From contig NZ_CP132910.1 of NCBI RefSeq assembly GCF_030846775.1, forward strand, positions 2,204,001 through 2,268,000: 64,000 nt of DNA. Direction: 5' to 3'. Shown here one piece after another: positions 4,128 through 31,620 of this stretch (its first letter is position 1; the number at the start of each line of letters is the position of its first letter). This DNA is from Geothrix sp. 21YS21S-2. Lineage in GTDB: Bacteria; Acidobacteriota; Holophagae; Holophagales; Holophagaceae. The translations under genes were made by a program, and so were the position numbers. The notes below the pieces were generated by a model. That model did no database searches, was not told where the DNA came from, and worked only from the letters and a program-made list of their open reading frames with translations.

Positions 4128-7100
4128 ATGAACGGTATTGGCATTCAAATTCGTATCCTGGGAATCCTCGCCATTGGGGGGATCAGTTCGTACATCGCCT
4201 GCGGCGGGGCGGGGTCGCCCAACCCGGCCCTGTCGGTCACCCCCTCCAGCCTCACCCTGAACCTGGAATACCTGGACAGCAACGGCAATGACACCGTCGG
4301 GGTCTCCATCACGGCCCCGGGAACCGTCATCCCCAACCTGAATTGGAGCGTCGACAACATCCCGGGCGGCAACGAGGAGGTCGGCGTGCTCTCCGGCACG
4401 GGCGCTTCCGTCACCTACATCGCACCCACCCTGCCGGGCACCCACACCATTACCGCCACGAGCACGGCGGATGCCAAGACGACCGCCTCCGCCAACGTCC
4501 GGGTCTTCGCCCCGGCCATGAAGGTGGCCCTGAGTCCGCAAACGGCCACCCTCGCACCCGGCGCCACCGCAGCCCTCACCGCCGCGGTGACGGGAACCCG
4601 GCATACCTCCGTCAAGTGGCAGGTGGATGGGGTCCAGGGCGGGAACGCCACAACTGGAACCATCTCCGGTTCCGGGACCACGGTCACGTACTCGGCCCCC
4701 GCCTCTCCGGGCACCCACACCGTCTCGGCCATCAGTTCCGTCAATCCCTCGGTCAGCGATGATGCGGTCGTGACGGTCCAGGCCACCCCCGGCATCGTCG
4801 TGGGCCTGGTCCCGGCCTCGGCCAGCCTGGCCGTCTCCGACACCCTCACCCTCACCTCCACGGTGACCGGTTCCACCAATGCCGCCGTCACCTGGTCCGT
4901 GGACGGCACGGCGGGCGGCAGCGCCACCGCCGGGACCATCGCGGGCACCGGAAACACCGCGGTCTATACCGCCCCGGCCGCCGCGGGCATCCACACCATC
5001 ACGGCCACCAGCGTCGCGGACCCCAAGAGTTCCGGGACCTCCGCGATCACGGTTCAGGCGCCCGTCTCCGTCTCCCTCACGCCCTCGTCCTCATCCGTCC
5101 CTGCCTCGGCCACCGCCTCCATCACCGCCACCGTTCTCAACGCGACGAACACGGCGGTGACGTGGTCCGTCGATGCCGTCGCGGGCGGAAACGCCACCGT
5201 GGGAACCCTCACGGGCACCGGCAACACCGTCACCTATACCGCCCCGGCGACCGCGGGATCCCACACGGTGATGGCCACGAGCGCGGCCGATCCCACCAAG
5301 AACGCCGCCACGGTGATCTCCGTGCAGGCCCCGGTGCAGGTGACCCTGAGCCCCTCCACCGCTAGCGTCAGCAGCGGGGCCACCGCCTCCATGACGGCCA
5401 CCGTGACCGGATCCACCACTACCACCGTCACCTGGGCCGTTGATGGGATCGCCGGCGGCAACACGACCGTCGGAACGATTTCAGGCACCGGAAACACCGT
5501 CACCTACTCGGCTCCCACCGCCGCCGGAACCCACACCGTCACGGCCAAGAGCACGGTTGACCCCACCAAGGCGGCCACCTCCGTGGTGACCGTCAAGGCC
5601 GGAGTGGCCCTGACGTTGGCCCCCGGGGCCACCACCATGGCCACCTCCGCCACGCTCTCCTTCACCGCCACCGTGACCGGGACGACATCCACGGGTGTCA
5701 CCTGGACGGTCGACTCGATCGCGGGCGGCAACGCCACGGTCGGAACCATCACCGGCACCGGGAACACCGTTACCTACACGGCTCCCGGCTCGGGGGGAAC
5801 CCACACGGTCACCGCCACCAGCACGGCCGACACCACGCGGAGCGCCTCCACCCCAGTGACGGTCCAGTCCTCCGTCGTGGTCGCCTTGACCCCCGCCAGC
5901 GCCAGCGTCTCCAGCGGGGCCACGCAGCTCTTCACCTCAACGGTCACCGGAACCACCAACACCGGTGTCGTCTGGGCCGTGGACGGGATTTCGGGCGGCA
6001 ACGCGACCGTGGGCACCGTTTCCGGAACGGGGGCCACCGCGACCTATACCGCTCCCGCCGCCGCCGGCACCCATACGCTCAAGGCCACCAGTTCGGCCGA
6101 TCCGGCCAAGAGCTCCACCTCGTCCATCACGGTTCTCGGGCCGGTCACCGTGGTCGTGAACCCGACTTCCGCCACGGTGGCCACGGGCGCCACCGCCTCC
6201 ATCACCGCCACGGCCACCGGTGGATCCACCCAGACCGTCACCTGGAAGGTGGATGGCGTTGCCGGAGGCAATTCGACGGTGGGGACCCTCACGGGGACCG
6301 GCGCCACCGTCACCTACACCGCCCCGGCCCTGGCGGGCTCCCATACCGTCACGGCGACCAGCGTCGCCAACACGGCCGTCAGCGCCTCCACCACCATCAC
6401 CGTCCAGGCGCCCGTCATCACGGTCACCCTGAACCCGAGCGGATCCGCCACGATGAGCCCCTCCGGTTCCCAGTCCTTCACCGCCACGGTGGGCGGCACC
6501 ACCAATTCCGGCGTCTCCTGGGACGTGGACGGGATCGCGGGCGGTTCCGCCGCCGTAGGGACCATCTCCGGCTCCGGAACGACCGTCTCCTACATCGCCC
6601 CGGCCACCACGGGCACCCACACCATAACGGCCACCAGCGCTGCGAACACCTCCGTATCGGCGAGCACGACGGTGACCGTACAGAGCTCCTCGGCGGTGAC
6701 CGTCTCCCTGGCCAAGATCGGCACGTCCTATGTCAGGGCCTCGGGGGCGACCATCTTCACGGCCACCGTCTCGGGCTCAAGCAACACCAGCGTGACCTGG
6801 ACCGTGGACGGCGTCGCCAACGGCAGCGCCACGGCCGGCACCATCGCCACCCCGGTATGGAACTACAAGGCGATCTACAACGCGCCTTCCTCCACCGGCA
6901 CCCATACGGTGAAGGCGACCAGCGTCGCCGACCCCACCAAGAGCGCCTCCATCACCCTTACGGTGGCCAGCACCGTCATCCAGCTCGGCAACATCGTCGA
7001 GGGCGCCAATGTCAAGAACGCCCCCTACAGCGCGAGAGGGGATGGGGCCACCGACGACACGGCCGCCATCATGGCCGCCGTCAATGCGGTCAAGGGCACC

Positions 7101-26933: not shown

Positions 26934-28148
26934 ATGAAGAAGCGCTGGTGGATCGTTGGCGTGGCGGGCTTCCTGGTCGTGGGCGGATTGCTCGTGGCGG
27001 CCAAGAGCACCCACAAGCCCAAAGGGAACCAGGAGACGCCGTTCCGGCTGGGCAAGGTCCAGGCCGAGGACCTCCAGGTCAGCGTGCGGGAAGTGGGCGT
27101 GGTGGATCCCTTCGTGAAGGTGGACATCAAGTCCACGGTCAGCGGCCGGGTCCTCTCCTACAAGGTGCGCGAGGGCGACATGGTCACCGCAGGCGAAGTG
27201 CTGGCGGAGGTCGAGCCCGACGTGAACCAGGCCCAGACCCTCTCCGACGTGCAGGGCAGCGTTTCCTCGGCCAAGGTGGCCTTCATGAACGCGGATAAGG
27301 ACTTCAAGCAGCAGGAGGCGCTCTTCAAGGAGGGCCTCGTGTCCGAGCAGGCCTTCCGTTCCTCCAGGACGGCCCGGGACATGGCCTCCGAGACCCTCAA
27401 GTCCGCCCAGACCCGCTACCAGATCGTCGAGGACCGGGGCATCCCCATCGCCGGCAACGCCTCCACCCAGCACGCCAAGGTCATCAGCCCCATGAGCGGC
27501 ATGGTCATCAAGAAGGGCGTGGAACTGGGCGACACCATCATGTCGGGCGTGAACAGCTTCAACGCCGGCACCGTGGTCTACACCGTGGCCGACCTGAAGT
27601 CGCTGATCATCAAGGTCAACGTCAACGAGGTGGACGTGGCCAAGGTGCAGGTGGGCCAGCCCGTGCGCATCACCCTGGACGCCTTCCCCCAGCGGACCTT
27701 CAACGGCCGCGTGCGCTTCGTGTCCCCCGCCGCCGAGCTGGTGGACAAGATCAAGGTCTTCAAGGTGGAGATCAAGCTGGACGAGCTCAGCGACGCCTAC
27801 CGCACCGGCATGAGCGCCAACGTCGAGATCCTGGGCGAGAAGCGCGACAAGGCCGTGAGCGTGCCCCTGGAGGCCCTGCAGCGCCGGGACGGGGGGACCG
27901 TGGTGTTCCGCCTGAAGAAGGACCTCGATCCCCAGAAGATGGCGGCCGCCAAGGAAGGCCTCTCCGGCCGCTCCAAGTTCGTGTGGCTCTCGGACCACTG
28001 GCGCGACTACTTCGACGTGGTCCCCGTGAAGGCCGGCATCGCCACCCTGGAGCGGGTGGAGATCATCTCGGGCCTGAACAAGGACGAGCAGGTGTGCCTC
28101 GAGGACCCCACCCGCAAGAAGGTGGAAAAGGACGAAGACAACTTCTAG
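26934..28148 (+). CDS. Periplasmic adaptor subunit of efflux system (MacA/HlyD-like)
   Basis: 404 residues. An N-terminal membrane anchor (5-23) precedes the lipoyl-like half motifs (VSGRVLSYKVREGDMVTAGEVLAEVEP and ISPMSGMVIKKGVELGD), a helical hairpin (about 95-165) and the beta-barrel (KVNVNEVDVAKVQVGQPVRI). It links inner-membrane ABC permeases to an outer-membrane channel. The ATPase and two permeases follow on the same strand. The stop codon TAG is formed by the TA target of the MITE plus its first base, so the original C-terminus may have differed slightly. Confidence 0.88.
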   Translation: MKKRWWIVGVAGFLVVGGLLVAAKSTHKPKGNQETPFRLGKVQAEDLQVSVREVGVVDPFVKVDIKSTVSGRVLSYKVREGDMVTAGEVLAEVEPDVNQAQTLSDVQGSVSSAKVAFMNADKDFKQQEALFKEGLVSEQAFRSSRTARDMASETLKSAQTRYQIVEDRGIPIAGNASTQHAKVISPMSGMVIKKGVELGDTIMSGVNSFNAGTVVYTVADLKSLIIKVNVNEVDVAKVQVGQPVRITLDAFPQRTFNGRVRFVSPAAELVDKIKVFKVEIKLDELSDAYRTGMSANVEILGEKRDKAVSVPLEALQRRDGGTVVFRLKKDLDPQKMAAAKEGLSGRSKFVWLSDHWRDYFDVVPVKAGIATLERVEIISGLNKDEQVCLEDPTRKKVEKDEDNF

Positions 28149-28414
28149 GGTCTGTTCGGAATGTAGGAGGCCCCGCGATGGTGGCACCGGCCATGGCAAG
28201 ACAAGGCCCGCGAGGAGGGCGATTCGGGAAATCGTTCGACGAGCGGAACGCAGGATTGCCGTGGCCGATGCCACCACCCGAAGGGCGGCGTCTGGAGGCC
28301 CGCTTATCGTGTGCAAGTCCCTTGAAAATATGCCCTATATTTCCCGCGGGCCTTGCGCCCGATCATCGGGCCTCCAGACGCCGTCGCGGGGCCTTCTACA
28401 TTCCGAACAGACCC
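28148..28414. mobile_element. MITE-like element, 267 bp, with TA duplication
   Basis: The terminal inverted repeats begin GGGTCTGTTCGGAATGTAGG; the outer 31 bases match their partner at 30 of 31 positions (28148-28178 with 28384-28414). Both ends abut TA (28146-28147, 28415-28416), as expected for TA-targeting IS630/mariner-type transposases. Weaker complementarity continues inward (around AAGGCCCGCG). No transposase is encoded. It separates the efflux adaptor from its ATPase gene in an otherwise tight operon. Confidence 0.85.
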
Positions 28415-28428
28415 TAGCTGGAGCCACC

Positions 28429-29112
28429 ATGCCGCTCGTCATCGAAACGCGGGAGATCACCAAGGTCTTCGGCGCCAACGGCACCGCTGTCCACGCCCTG
28501 CGCGGCGTCGACCTCCAGGTGGAAGCCGGCGAATTCATCGCCCTCATCGGCCCCAGCGGTTCCGGAAAGTCCACCCTCATGGCCATCCTGGGCTGCCTGG
28601 ACCGCCCCACCGGAGGCAGCTACGAGCTGGACGGCCACCCCGTCCAGGGCCTCTCGGGCGGCGACCTGGCCCGCATCCGCAACACCAAGATCGGTTTCGT
28701 GTTCCAGGCCTACAACCTGCTGCCCAAGGCCTCGGTGGTGCGCAACGTGGAACTGCCCATGCTCTACGCCGGGGTGGGGCGCAAGGAGCGCCGGGCCCGG
28801 GCCATGGAGATGCTGGACCGCGTGGGCATCGCCGAGAAGGCCATGAAGCTCCCCGGCGAACTCTCCGGAGGCCAGAAGCAGCGCGTGTCCATCGCCAGGT
28901 CCCTGGCCAACCGCCCCACCATCCTCCTCGCCGACGAGCCCACCGGGGCCCTGGATTCCCACACCGGCGCCGAGATCCTCGACCTGTTCAAGGAGCTCAA
29001 CCGCCAGGGCAACACCGTCATCCTCGTCACCCACGACCTGGGCATCGCGGCCATGGCCCAGCGCAAGGTGGAGATCCGCGACGGCCTCATCGCCACGGGC
29101 GAACCCCAATGA
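28429..29112 (+). CDS. ABC transporter ATP-binding protein (MacB/LolD type)
   Basis: 227 residues. The ATG at 28429 follows GGAG by 5 bases, just outside the MITE. It has Walker A GPSGSGKST, a Q-loop FQAYNLLP, signature LSGGQKQRVS, Walker B ILLADEPTGALD and the switch His in VTHD. It powers the two FtsX-type permeases downstream, probably for efflux or lipoprotein/peptide export by mechanotransmission. Its stop overlaps the next gene (ATGA). Confidence 0.92.
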   Translation: MPLVIETREITKVFGANGTAVHALRGVDLQVEAGEFIALIGPSGSGKSTLMAILGCLDRPTGGSYELDGHPVQGLSGGDLARIRNTKIGFVFQAYNLLPKASVVRNVELPMLYAGVGRKERRARAMEMLDRVGIAEKAMKLPGELSGGQKQRVSIARSLANRPTILLADEPTGALDSHTGAEILDLFKELNRQGNTVILVTHDLGIAAMAQRKVEIRDGLIATGEPQ

Positions 29113-30359
29113 GCGGCTCGGGCGCCTTTCGCGAACGGCTCCTGGAATCCTGGGTGGAGATCCGGGAGAACCTCGGCCGCTCCATCCTCCAGGCCCTGGG
29201 CGTGATCCTGGGCGTGGCCTCGGTGCTGGGGGGCTTCTCCATCTCCGACAGCCAGCGGGCCCAGAGCGACCGGCTCTTCGTGAAGCTGGGGGGCCTGGAC
29301 AAGCTCAACGTCCAGCCCAACGCCATCGTCAAGGACGGCCAGGCCACGGCGCTCCAGACCGCCAACCGCGGCCTGCGCAACGACGACGCCGTGAACGGCT
29401 CGGACCTGGACACCAAGGCCGTGGCCGGCGTGAGCGTGCGCAAGAACGCCAGGGCCCGCACGAAGAGCGCCTACGCCGACCAGGACCGCCAGCTCACGGG
29501 CATCGGCGCCGACTTCATTCCCATGGAGGGCTACGCCGTGGCCACCGGGCGCTCCTTCAGCGCCACGGACCTGGACCAGGGCGAGGCCGTGGCCATCCTC
29601 GGCGCGGAAGCCGCCCAGACCTACTTCCCCGCGGGCGACGCCCTGGGGCAGGTGCTCACCATCGGCGGCATCCCCGTGACGGTGATCGGCACGTTCCAGG
29701 AGCGGGTGTTCCGCTTCCGGGAGGGCCAGGGCAACATCTTCCGCTGGCGCAACCGCATCATCGCCCTGCCCTCGGCCTTCGTGCAGAAGCGCATGCAGGG
29801 CGACCAGTACCGCCGCACGGACCGGGTCACCTTCCGGCTCCCCGAGGTCAACGCCATCCAGGGCTTCGCCAAGGGCCTCACCGCCTTCCTCAAGGCCAGC
29901 CACCGCCAGCAGGAGGACTTCCGCCTGGACGACGTGGCCGCGCGCATGGCCAAGCGGCGCAGCCAGGGCGACGTCTACAACATCATCTTCCTGCTCTCGG
30001 GCGTCCTGGCCCTGCTGGGCGGAGGCATCGTGAACGTGAACATCCAGATGGCCTCCCTCAAGGAACGCGTGCGCGAAGTGGGCGTCAAGATGGCCATCGG
30101 CGCCTCGGGCCGGGAGGTGTTCAAGGGCTTCATGACCGAGGCCCTGCTCCTCACACTGCTGGGCGCCTTCCTGGGCCTCTCCGCCGGCGTGCTCTTCTCC
30201 TGGACCATCTGCCTGAGCCTGGGCGTGCCGCTCTACATGCGGGCCTCGAGCTTCGTGTGGGCCTTCCTGCTGGCGGCCGTCTTCGGCTTCGCCTTCGCCC
30301 TGTATCCCGCGTGGAAGGCCAGCCGCCTCTCCCCCATGGAGGCCCTCCGCTATGAGTGA
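29109..30359 (+). CDS. ABC transporter permease, MacB/FtsX family (first)
   Basis: 416 residues. One N-terminal helix (about 24-44), a large periplasmic MacB-type core (about 45-285) with the DLDQGEAVAILGAEAA segment, and three C-terminal helices with the FtsX-type loop LKERVREVGVKMAIGAS. It ends with the typical SRLSPMEALRYE. It overlaps the ATPase by 4 bases and the second permease by 8. A heterodimeric permease with the next protein is likely. Confidence 0.88.
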   Translation: MSGSGAFRERLLESWVEIRENLGRSILQALGVILGVASVLGGFSISDSQRAQSDRLFVKLGGLDKLNVQPNAIVKDGQATALQTANRGLRNDDAVNGSDLDTKAVAGVSVRKNARARTKSAYADQDRQLTGIGADFIPMEGYAVATGRSFSATDLDQGEAVAILGAEAAQTYFPAGDALGQVLTIGGIPVTVIGTFQERVFRFREGQGNIFRWRNRIIALPSAFVQKRMQGDQYRRTDRVTFRLPEVNAIQGFAKGLTAFLKASHRQQEDFRLDDVAARMAKRRSQGDVYNIIFLLSGVLALLGGGIVNVNIQMASLKERVREVGVKMAIGASGREVFKGFMTEALLLTLLGAFLGLSAGVLFSWTICLSLGVPLYMRASSFVWAFLLAAVFGFAFALYPAWKASRLSPMEALRYE

Positions 30360-31620
30360 AATGACGACTCCCGTGGCCGCGCGGGGCATCGGGCACCAGG
30401 CCGCGCTGGCCTGGGAGGTGGTGGTCAGCGGCCTGACCGAGCTGTGGGCCCACAAGATGCGGTCCATCCTGACCCTCACGCTCCTCATGCTGGGCGTCTT
30501 CGCCCTGGTGGTGATGACCTCCGTGCTGGACGGCATCCTGGACAAGATCGGCACGGGCTTTTCCGGCATGAGCTGGGACGGAACCCTCGTCGTGGCCCCC
30601 AAGACCGCCGAGACCTCGGACGAGCAGAAGCGCTTCGCCATGAGCCCCGGCCTGCGAATGGAGGACGTGCCCCGCCTCACCGCGCCCTACGACAAGGTCA
30701 TGGCGTTCATGCCCCGGGCCGTGAAGCAGACCAGTGTGCGCGTGGCCAGCGGCAACGAGCGGATCATGGTCGCGGGCAACGTCCCCGACTACATCCCCGT
30801 CATGAACCGCAGGATCGCCTCCGGGCGCGGCCTCACCGAGGACGACCAGAAGCGCCGCTCCACCGTGGCCGTGCTGGGCGCAAGCCTGGCCTCCAAGTTC
30901 CTGGGCGGGGCGGACCCGGTGGGCAAGGACATCATGGTCGACGGCATCCCCTTCCGGGTGGTGGGCGTCCTGGCCCCCCTGATGATCTTCAACGAGGACT
31001 CCTGGGTGGACGCCAACGGCATGCTCATCCCCCTGGAAGCCTACATGGACCGCCTGGACCCCACCCACAAGCTGAGCCAGCTGGGCGTCAAGCTCAAGGC
31101 CAAGCGGGACGCCAAGGACGTCACCGCCCTGGTCCTGGGCCGGGCCAAGCAGGCCCACCACGGGATCGAGGACGTGGAGATCCTGGACCTGGACGCCGAG
31201 GCCGCGCGCAGCTGGCAGAACTTCCTGCAGCAGATGCGGGGCTGGACCATCGTCCTCATGAGCCTGGCGGGCACCGTGCTCCTGGTGGGCGGCGTGGGGG
31301 TGCTCTCGGTGATGCTCATCTCCTTCTCGGACCGCCGCTACGAGATCGGCCTGCGCAAGGCCCTGGGCGCCTCGGACCAGGAGATCTTCGTGCAGTTCCT
31401 CCTGGAAGCGGCCGTCCTGGCAGCCCTCGGCGCCCTGACAGGCACCCTGGCGGGCGGGGCCCTGTGCAAGGCCCTCTCGAGCAATTTCCCCTACGGTCTC
31501 GTGGTGAATATGTATGGCCTCCTCATGGCCTGGGGCGTGGCGTTGGCGCTCTCCCTGGTGTTCGGCATGTATCCCGCATTCAGGGCCATGCGACTCAGCC
31601 CCATGGAAGCCATGCGTTAA
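30352..31620 (+). CDS. ABC transporter permease, MacB/FtsX family (second)
   Basis: 422 residues with the same layout as the preceding permease: a helix near residues 38-60, a periplasmic domain, and three C-terminal helices, with the motif RRYEIGLRKALGAS and end RLSPMEAMR. The sequence is only distantly related to its neighbour, so this is an old duplication. It is the last gene of the adaptor-ATPase-permease-permease operon. Confidence 0.88.
   Translation: MSEMTTPVAARGIGHQAALAWEVVVSGLTELWAHKMRSILTLTLLMLGVFALVVMTSVLDGILDKIGTGFSGMSWDGTLVVAPKTAETSDEQKRFAMSPGLRMEDVPRLTAPYDKVMAFMPRAVKQTSVRVASGNERIMVAGNVPDYIPVMNRRIASGRGLTEDDQKRRSTVAVLGASLASKFLGGADPVGKDIMVDGIPFRVVGVLAPLMIFNEDSWVDANGMLIPLEAYMDRLDPTHKLSQLGVKLKAKRDAKDVTALVLGRAKQAHHGIEDVEILDLDAEAARSWQNFLQQMRGWTIVLMSLAGTVLLVGGVGVLSVMLISFSDRRYEIGLRKALGASDQEIFVQFLLEAAVLAALGALTGTLAGGALCKALSSNFPYGLVVNMYGLLMAWGVALALSLVFGMYPAFRAMRLSPMEAMR

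Follow-up and report, generated by a model that had tools for sequence, protein, structure and literature searches.

Several families of short mobile repeats described in bacteria resemble the element studied here in one respect or another. The RUP and NEMIS (Correia) MITEs, as outlined in PMC2229807, are short, non-coding and intergenic, with terminal inverted repeats, a TA target and transcripts that form stable stem-loops, and RUP is tied to IS630-Spn1 through its ends; each of these families has one type of end and folds mostly as a single end-to-end stem. In the present element, by contrast, one conserved two-arm core is found between at least four types of end within one genus. REPINs are paired hairpins. 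The termini of GTAG REPs, which are associated with RAYT transposases, often supply TAG stops to flanking ORFs (PMC3733652), as this element does, but REPs are 20-40 bp long and lack terminal inverted repeats, whereas here arms of about 100 nt lie inside terminal inverted repeats at a duplicated TA. We considered the possibility that the element might itself be a REP or REPIN, but its terminal repeats and TA duplication rule against this. The Caulobacter CIR repeats also have two long arms joined by a linker, in a structure conserved between species, but they are about 110 bp long, carry a GANTC motif and differ in sequence, and the account of them in PMC2229807 describes no exchange of ends. 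The IS5 family (NF033580, with DUF4096 / DDE_Tnp_1) resembles our element in its CTAG target and, in the case of an IS5 element of a sister genome, in its ends; unlike IS5, the present element has no transposase gene, and by eye its core is unrelated to the IS5 interior.

The element is 267 bp long (28148-28414) and lies in a 64,000-nt stretch of the Geothrix sp. 21YS21S-2 genome, referred to here as the window, between a HlyD/MacA-type adaptor gene and an ABC ATPase gene that is followed by two permease genes (Table 1). Its ends of 21 nt run on into an 8-bp stem, and the inverted arms reach 37 nt with 95% complementarity when the CTAG on both sides is included (28145-28181 and 28381-28417), confirming the preliminary description of a 267-bp element with inverted ends and TA on both sides inside an operon. 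The 267 bp contain no ORF of their own beyond read-through frames, and a consensus scan of the element gave no match to a sigma-70-like promoter or an intrinsic terminator. Folded as single-stranded RNA, the element has an energy of -198.9 kcal/mol, compared with a mean of -109.3 for shuffled sequences (z = -16.3), which, together with ten further copies in the genome, places it far beyond chance. Elsewhere in the window (5179-6119) there is a tandem repeat of 270 bp, with 3.5 copies and 69% matches.

Table 1. Features of the element and its operon, in window coordinates.
Feature	Position	Strand	Remark
Efflux adaptor (MacA/HlyD type)	26934-28148	+	stop TAG at 28146-28148, older than the element
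Left TA of duplicated target (CTAG)	28146-28147	.	from empty-site comparison
Left terminal inverted repeat GGGTCTGTTCGGAATGTAGGA	28148-28168	+	within the genome, found in the window copy only
Conserved structured core, 225 nt	28169-28393	+	8-bp closing stem (28169-28176 with 28386-28393) plus two arms
Arm A, imperfect hairpin	28179-28275	+	conserved purine-rich internal loops GCGAG / CGAGC
Central mini-hairpin CCC-GAA-GGG	28277-28285	+	
Arm B, second imperfect hairpin	28286-28385	+	related to the reverse complement of arm A
Right terminal inverted repeat	28394-28414	-	
Right TA of duplicated target	28415-28416	.	
ABC ATPase	28429-29112	+	GGAG and start codon (ATG) kept after insertion
Two MacB/FtsX-type permeases, same operon	29109-31620 (29109-30359, 30352-31620)	+	

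Three of five sister genomes (G002, G003 and G005) carry the same site without the element (TTC-TAG-CTGGAG), so that the comparison with an empty site proposed at the outset could be made three times. The adaptor orthologues in these genomes (G005, 96%; G002, 94%; G003, 89%) end in the same codons, GAC AAC TTC TAG (DNF-TAG), followed directly by CTGGAGCC (CCGGAGCC in G003) and then by the ATPase start. In G001 the orthologue (88%) ends in DNF-TGA, and the element is absent from that site too. The stop codon of the window copy does consist of TA plus the first G of the element, as originally described; the suggestion that the insertion set the end of the protein was wrong, since the same TAG is present at the empty sites. 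The TAG is thus older than the insertion, and the element's G merely restored the stop. These comparisons show that the element entered a CTAG already holding the adaptor stop and left the protein unchanged. The net gain of 269 bp can be written either as 267 bp plus a 2-bp TA duplication or as 265 bp plus a 4-bp CTAG duplication, with identical letters in the window. Copies flanked by TTAG/CTAA or TTAG/CTAG (L002, L171 and L175) fit a 2-bp TA duplication and an element starting with G, and their flanks favor that reading.

A nucleotide search of the 5.25-Mb genome (G000) for further copies, as the preliminary description had advised, found nine other full copies and one that is split by a transposon (L015 and L011). 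Seven full copies are present in G002, and full or partial ones in G003, G004 and G005. No copy of the core was found in G001, and the 55 genomes other than these carriers gave no match at the nucleotide level, for a total of 5 of 60 including G000. Searches of plasmids and two motif scans of viral contigs found nothing, and a wider contig scan, which may have left near genomes outside its range, returned six records from unrelated phyla that were treated as chance palindromes. The evidence supports identification as a MITE: there are multiple copies with matching ends and TA or CTAG at their flanks, and the site is empty in three genomes. The element is short and non-coding, has terminal inverted repeats and dispersed copies, and duplicates its target. 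A clean duplication is missing at L029 and L037.

The Geothrix genome also has 14 ends that stand alone and one pair of ends spanning 56 bp. Those of the end-only loci whose sequences were read look like remnants from which the interior has been lost, the 56-bp palindrome at L069 being an example. In seven loci (near position 1501 of L057, L058, L060, L065, L069, L083 and L084) the interior is deleted between or inside the terminal repeats, and several of these retain the TAG stop. Such loci might be read as a trail of hairpin-linked deletions.

Other repeats are associated with some of the copies. A palindrome of about 53 bp bounded by GATC, apparently a second and smaller mobile repeat, is nested in arm A or B of L030, L041 and L044. 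The L007 copy sits at the center of another palindrome, with CACTACTGTGTCATAA on both sides of CTAG, and the same half-palindrome flanks a G001 IS5 copy (right flank of L140). A longer version of 406 bp, with extra sequence in the arms, is found in a sister genus (L212, 1501-1906), with similar spans in other genomes. In the flanks of L003, L009, L010 and L015 (TGATATGTATTGGCC...) and at L016 (1382-2572), the end of an apparent IS110-type element abuts the MITE ends exactly, as if this element, from a family with an RNA-guided transposase, were targeting the MITE terminus.

The fold of the core consists of two arms on a closing stem, and the alignments indicate that it has been maintained. In the genus alignment (18 copies, 15 of them distinct), 97.7% of the cells at 79 predicted pairs are paired, and 26 of the 79 pairs show compensatory change. 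Counting cells changed on both sides, there are 101 such cells compared with 32.4 in shuffles (a value reached in 0 of 500) and 6-19 in slid controls; the number of further pair types is unexceptional, being reached by 58 of 500 shuffles. The family alignment (A4) consists of the 24 better-scoring elements within the family, out of 41 loci, with more distant relatives left out of the covariation count, and after refolding it has compensatory change in 55 of 65 pairs, with 286 compensatory cells compared with 71.4 in shuffles (0 of 500) and 29-70 in slid controls. Copies L030 and L044, which have the nested 53-bp insert, are in alignment A1 and are left out of A2 and A4, L007 and L008 are also left out of A2, and alignment A3 mixes strands and was not used. 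A covariance model (R1), run against 396 genomes of the phylum, detected the core in 33 at a rough E-value of 0.001 or better. Besides G000, these comprise 22 genomes from its own family and 10 from other families, where the matches are mostly weaker and some only half conserved. Because the arms are palindromic, one element can give many matches on both strands, and these did not enter the copy counts.

The two arms are related to each other. Arm A aligns better to the reverse complement of arm B than to arm B itself in 13 of 14 elements, with L004 the exception, so that the element is more or less one arm unit repeated in inverted orientation, and its two strands look similar. Such likeness of the strands fits a DNA-level role, or an RNA indifferent to orientation, better than it does an ordinary strand-specific RNA, a possibility that we rejected for want of a consistent strand bias. 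A functional RNA, non-coding or cis-regulatory, that uses the MITE form to spread, with selection acting on its transcript, would account for the strong covariation and for the conserved internal loops with their invariant GCGA / GAG, which would form tandem sheared G-A pairs. We consider this unlikely, although it survives better than the other alternatives, as the strand with arm A first folds better in just 20 of 41 copies, 11 of them among the 14 in the genus and 9 among the 27 outside it, the arms are inverted copies so that neither strand is special, and copies face either way with respect to the gene upstream. In addition, the core has no Rfam match above the gathering score and no promoter-like site. 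We did not find a description of this element in the literature searched.

Template-switch correction is known for quasi-palindromes, and the covariation might instead be a by-product of such correction, one arm being copied into the other with no selection on the fold. The same process would make the two ends of any one element resemble each other, as is seen. It should, however, erase mismatched internal loops, and the loop columns are in fact better conserved (81% in arm A, 84% in arm B) than the variable stems (72%), leaving correction as the sole cause improbable. Since correction alone would remove the loops, we read the covariation as selection on both the fold and the loop sequence. 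It is likely that selection acting on both base pairing and internal-loop sequence has preserved the module throughout the genus and the family, and probably in several of the families that make up the phylum.

The ends of the element behave differently from its core. The two ends of any one element are 90-100% identical, while those of different elements differ, and homology to the window copy breaks off where the terminal repeat ends (query 21-249 or 22-246). Window-like cores are found with three types of end in the genus, GGGTCTGTTCGGAATGTAG in the window, GAGGGTGTCTGCTAAAAGG in L002 and L003, and GAGCCTGTCCAAGTAATATTC in five G002 copies, and related cores in the genus carry GAGCCTGTCTACGTAATAG and GAGGGTGTTTTAGAAATAG. 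The window copy shares 94% identity in the core but 57% in the ends with L029/L033 of a sister species, and 89% and 55%, respectively, with L002. Nearly identical cores with different ends indicate that the ends were exchanged while the core stayed; on these alignments, the module appears to have been combined with one set of transposon ends in some copies and with other sets in others.

As for the transposase, the nearest ends that we found belong to the IS5-family element of G001 (transposase NF033580), whose right end matches the window end at 17 of 20 bases and whose left end does so at 15 of 20. This IS5 element is preceded by CTA at all 24 loci and followed by TAG at 20 of the 22 where a right end was found. 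The window copy and most others lie at CTAG, in agreement with the YTAR / CTAG target of the family; of 24 IS5 targets reported in PMC5493358, 15 were CTAG. The comparison favors an IS5-type transposase for the window copy. An IS630/mariner-type MITE, as first proposed, would have duplicated TA at CTAG and been moved by the IS630 transposase of the host genome. In favor of that proposal are the TA flanks and the presence of IS630 transposases: PF13358 has eight matches in G000 (seven over the cut-off), an IS630 transposase is also encoded by the 1.87-kb transposon that has entered one copy at CTAG, and relatives in another family have ends starting with TGTAG like those of these IS630 elements. 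It is weakened in that the IS630 ends in the same genome (TGTAGGCCGCCAGAAG, L016) are unlike those of the window, to which the G001 IS5 ends are a far better match. PF13358 has two matches each in G004 and G005 and none in G001, G003 or G002, the last with its seven full copies. IS630/mariner is thus probably the wrong transposase family, and we give that origin about as little credit as correction alone.

The IS5 assignment has difficulties of its own. MITEs usually share their ends with an autonomous element of the same genome, and in G000 we found no IS-sized element with window-type ends. PF13340 (IS5-type OrfA) has 54 matches in G001, yet G001 has no copy of the core, which counts against an IS5 carrier; there are five matches in G002, one in G004 and none in G000, G003 or G005. 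No IS-sized element was found for the GAGCCTGTC class in G001-G005, nor a complete IS for the most expanded class in G002, and in 15 genomes of a sister genus the 46 terminal repeat pairs of the GAGTGCCTAAC class span 50-429 bp, none near 1 kb. Carriers of matching ends may be extinct, may lie outside the genomes examined, or may have ends that have since diverged. Core relatives in another family (L182, L188 and L190) have ends CTAG-TGTAGTGTTTCATTAATCC, closer to the IS630 type than to the IS5 type, and those of L182 and L188 look IS630-like (CTAG-TGTAG...); with such ends in other families, IS5 need not be the sole carrier. A GxxExxY gene (PD-(D/E)XK, TIGR04256 / PF13366) is a passenger beside the transposase in IS630- and IS5-type elements of the genus, confirmed by profile in L016 (2800-4671, IS630), by reading in L098 and L120 (1396-2899), and partial in L119 (1397-2765).

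A fixed regulatory element tuning ATPase and permease expression would fit the increase in stop-to-start distance from 11 to 280 nt, 269 bp of added DNA in a very stable stem that would make the RNA extremely stable as well, but it is the least probable reading and a very unlikely one, the element being missing at the same site in G001, G002, G003 and G005 and its other copies adjoining unrelated genes.

Position at a stop codon is common among the copies. In 12 of 17 full copies (10 from G000, 7 from G002), TA plus the element's first G forms the stop of a coding-like frame, and nine of ten such ORFs tested carry a Pfam domain, including seryl-tRNA synthetase, aldehyde dehydrogenase and a GGDEF protein; the G001 IS5 element likewise forms a TAG stop in 16 of 22 cases. 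Within the window (68.5% G+C), the composition predicts about 186 CTAG sites and 24 occur; leaving aside the two that the element itself creates, 8 of the remaining 22 lie at coding-like stops, a background from which 12 of 17 differs at Fisher P = 0.035, in a rough comparison given that the coding test also accepts some antisense frames. We considered stop codons as a special target and rejected the idea, as a preference for CTAG and the loss of gene-disrupting insertions suffice. Because CTAG is rare in genes and overlaps stops, insertions at stops are those that survive; target preference together with loss of insertions inside genes would explain most of the stop-codon hits. GTAG REPs are reported to have the same consequence for their neighbors (PMC3733652).

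The best explanation, and one that we regard as probable as a whole, is an IS5-type MITE at a pre-existing stop, with a selected folded module between exchangeable ends. A non-autonomous transposon entered the CTAG at the adaptor stop, duplicating TA (or CTAG) and leaving the protein unaltered. The folded 225-nt module would travel with whichever transposase is available, mobilized in trans by IS5-like and perhaps other transposases; its ends may have been exchanged by copying within the long palindrome, and the folded arms may act as DNA, either by serving transposition or by helping the palindrome to survive.

The stop-codon position of the element is ordinary by comparison, and what stands out is that the core is conserved, covaries and lasts longer than its ends. 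The usual view of bacterial MITEs is that they are decayed insertion sequences whose interiors are dispensable, whereas here the interior is conserved and the ends are changeable. Whether the folded core helps a non-autonomous element to be moved or protects its palindrome from being removed, and how the two ends of one element change together, are questions that can be tested now. It is conceivable, although we suggest it tentatively and think it rather doubtful, that this is a new class of mobile module: a two-arm folded DNA/RNA core without a transposase or ends of its own, old, common to several families of the phylum, persisting by exchange of terminal repeats, and moved by one unrelated transposase after another, of the IS5 type in this case and possibly of the IS630 type elsewhere. 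If this is true, the folded core would be a parasite of transposons in general.
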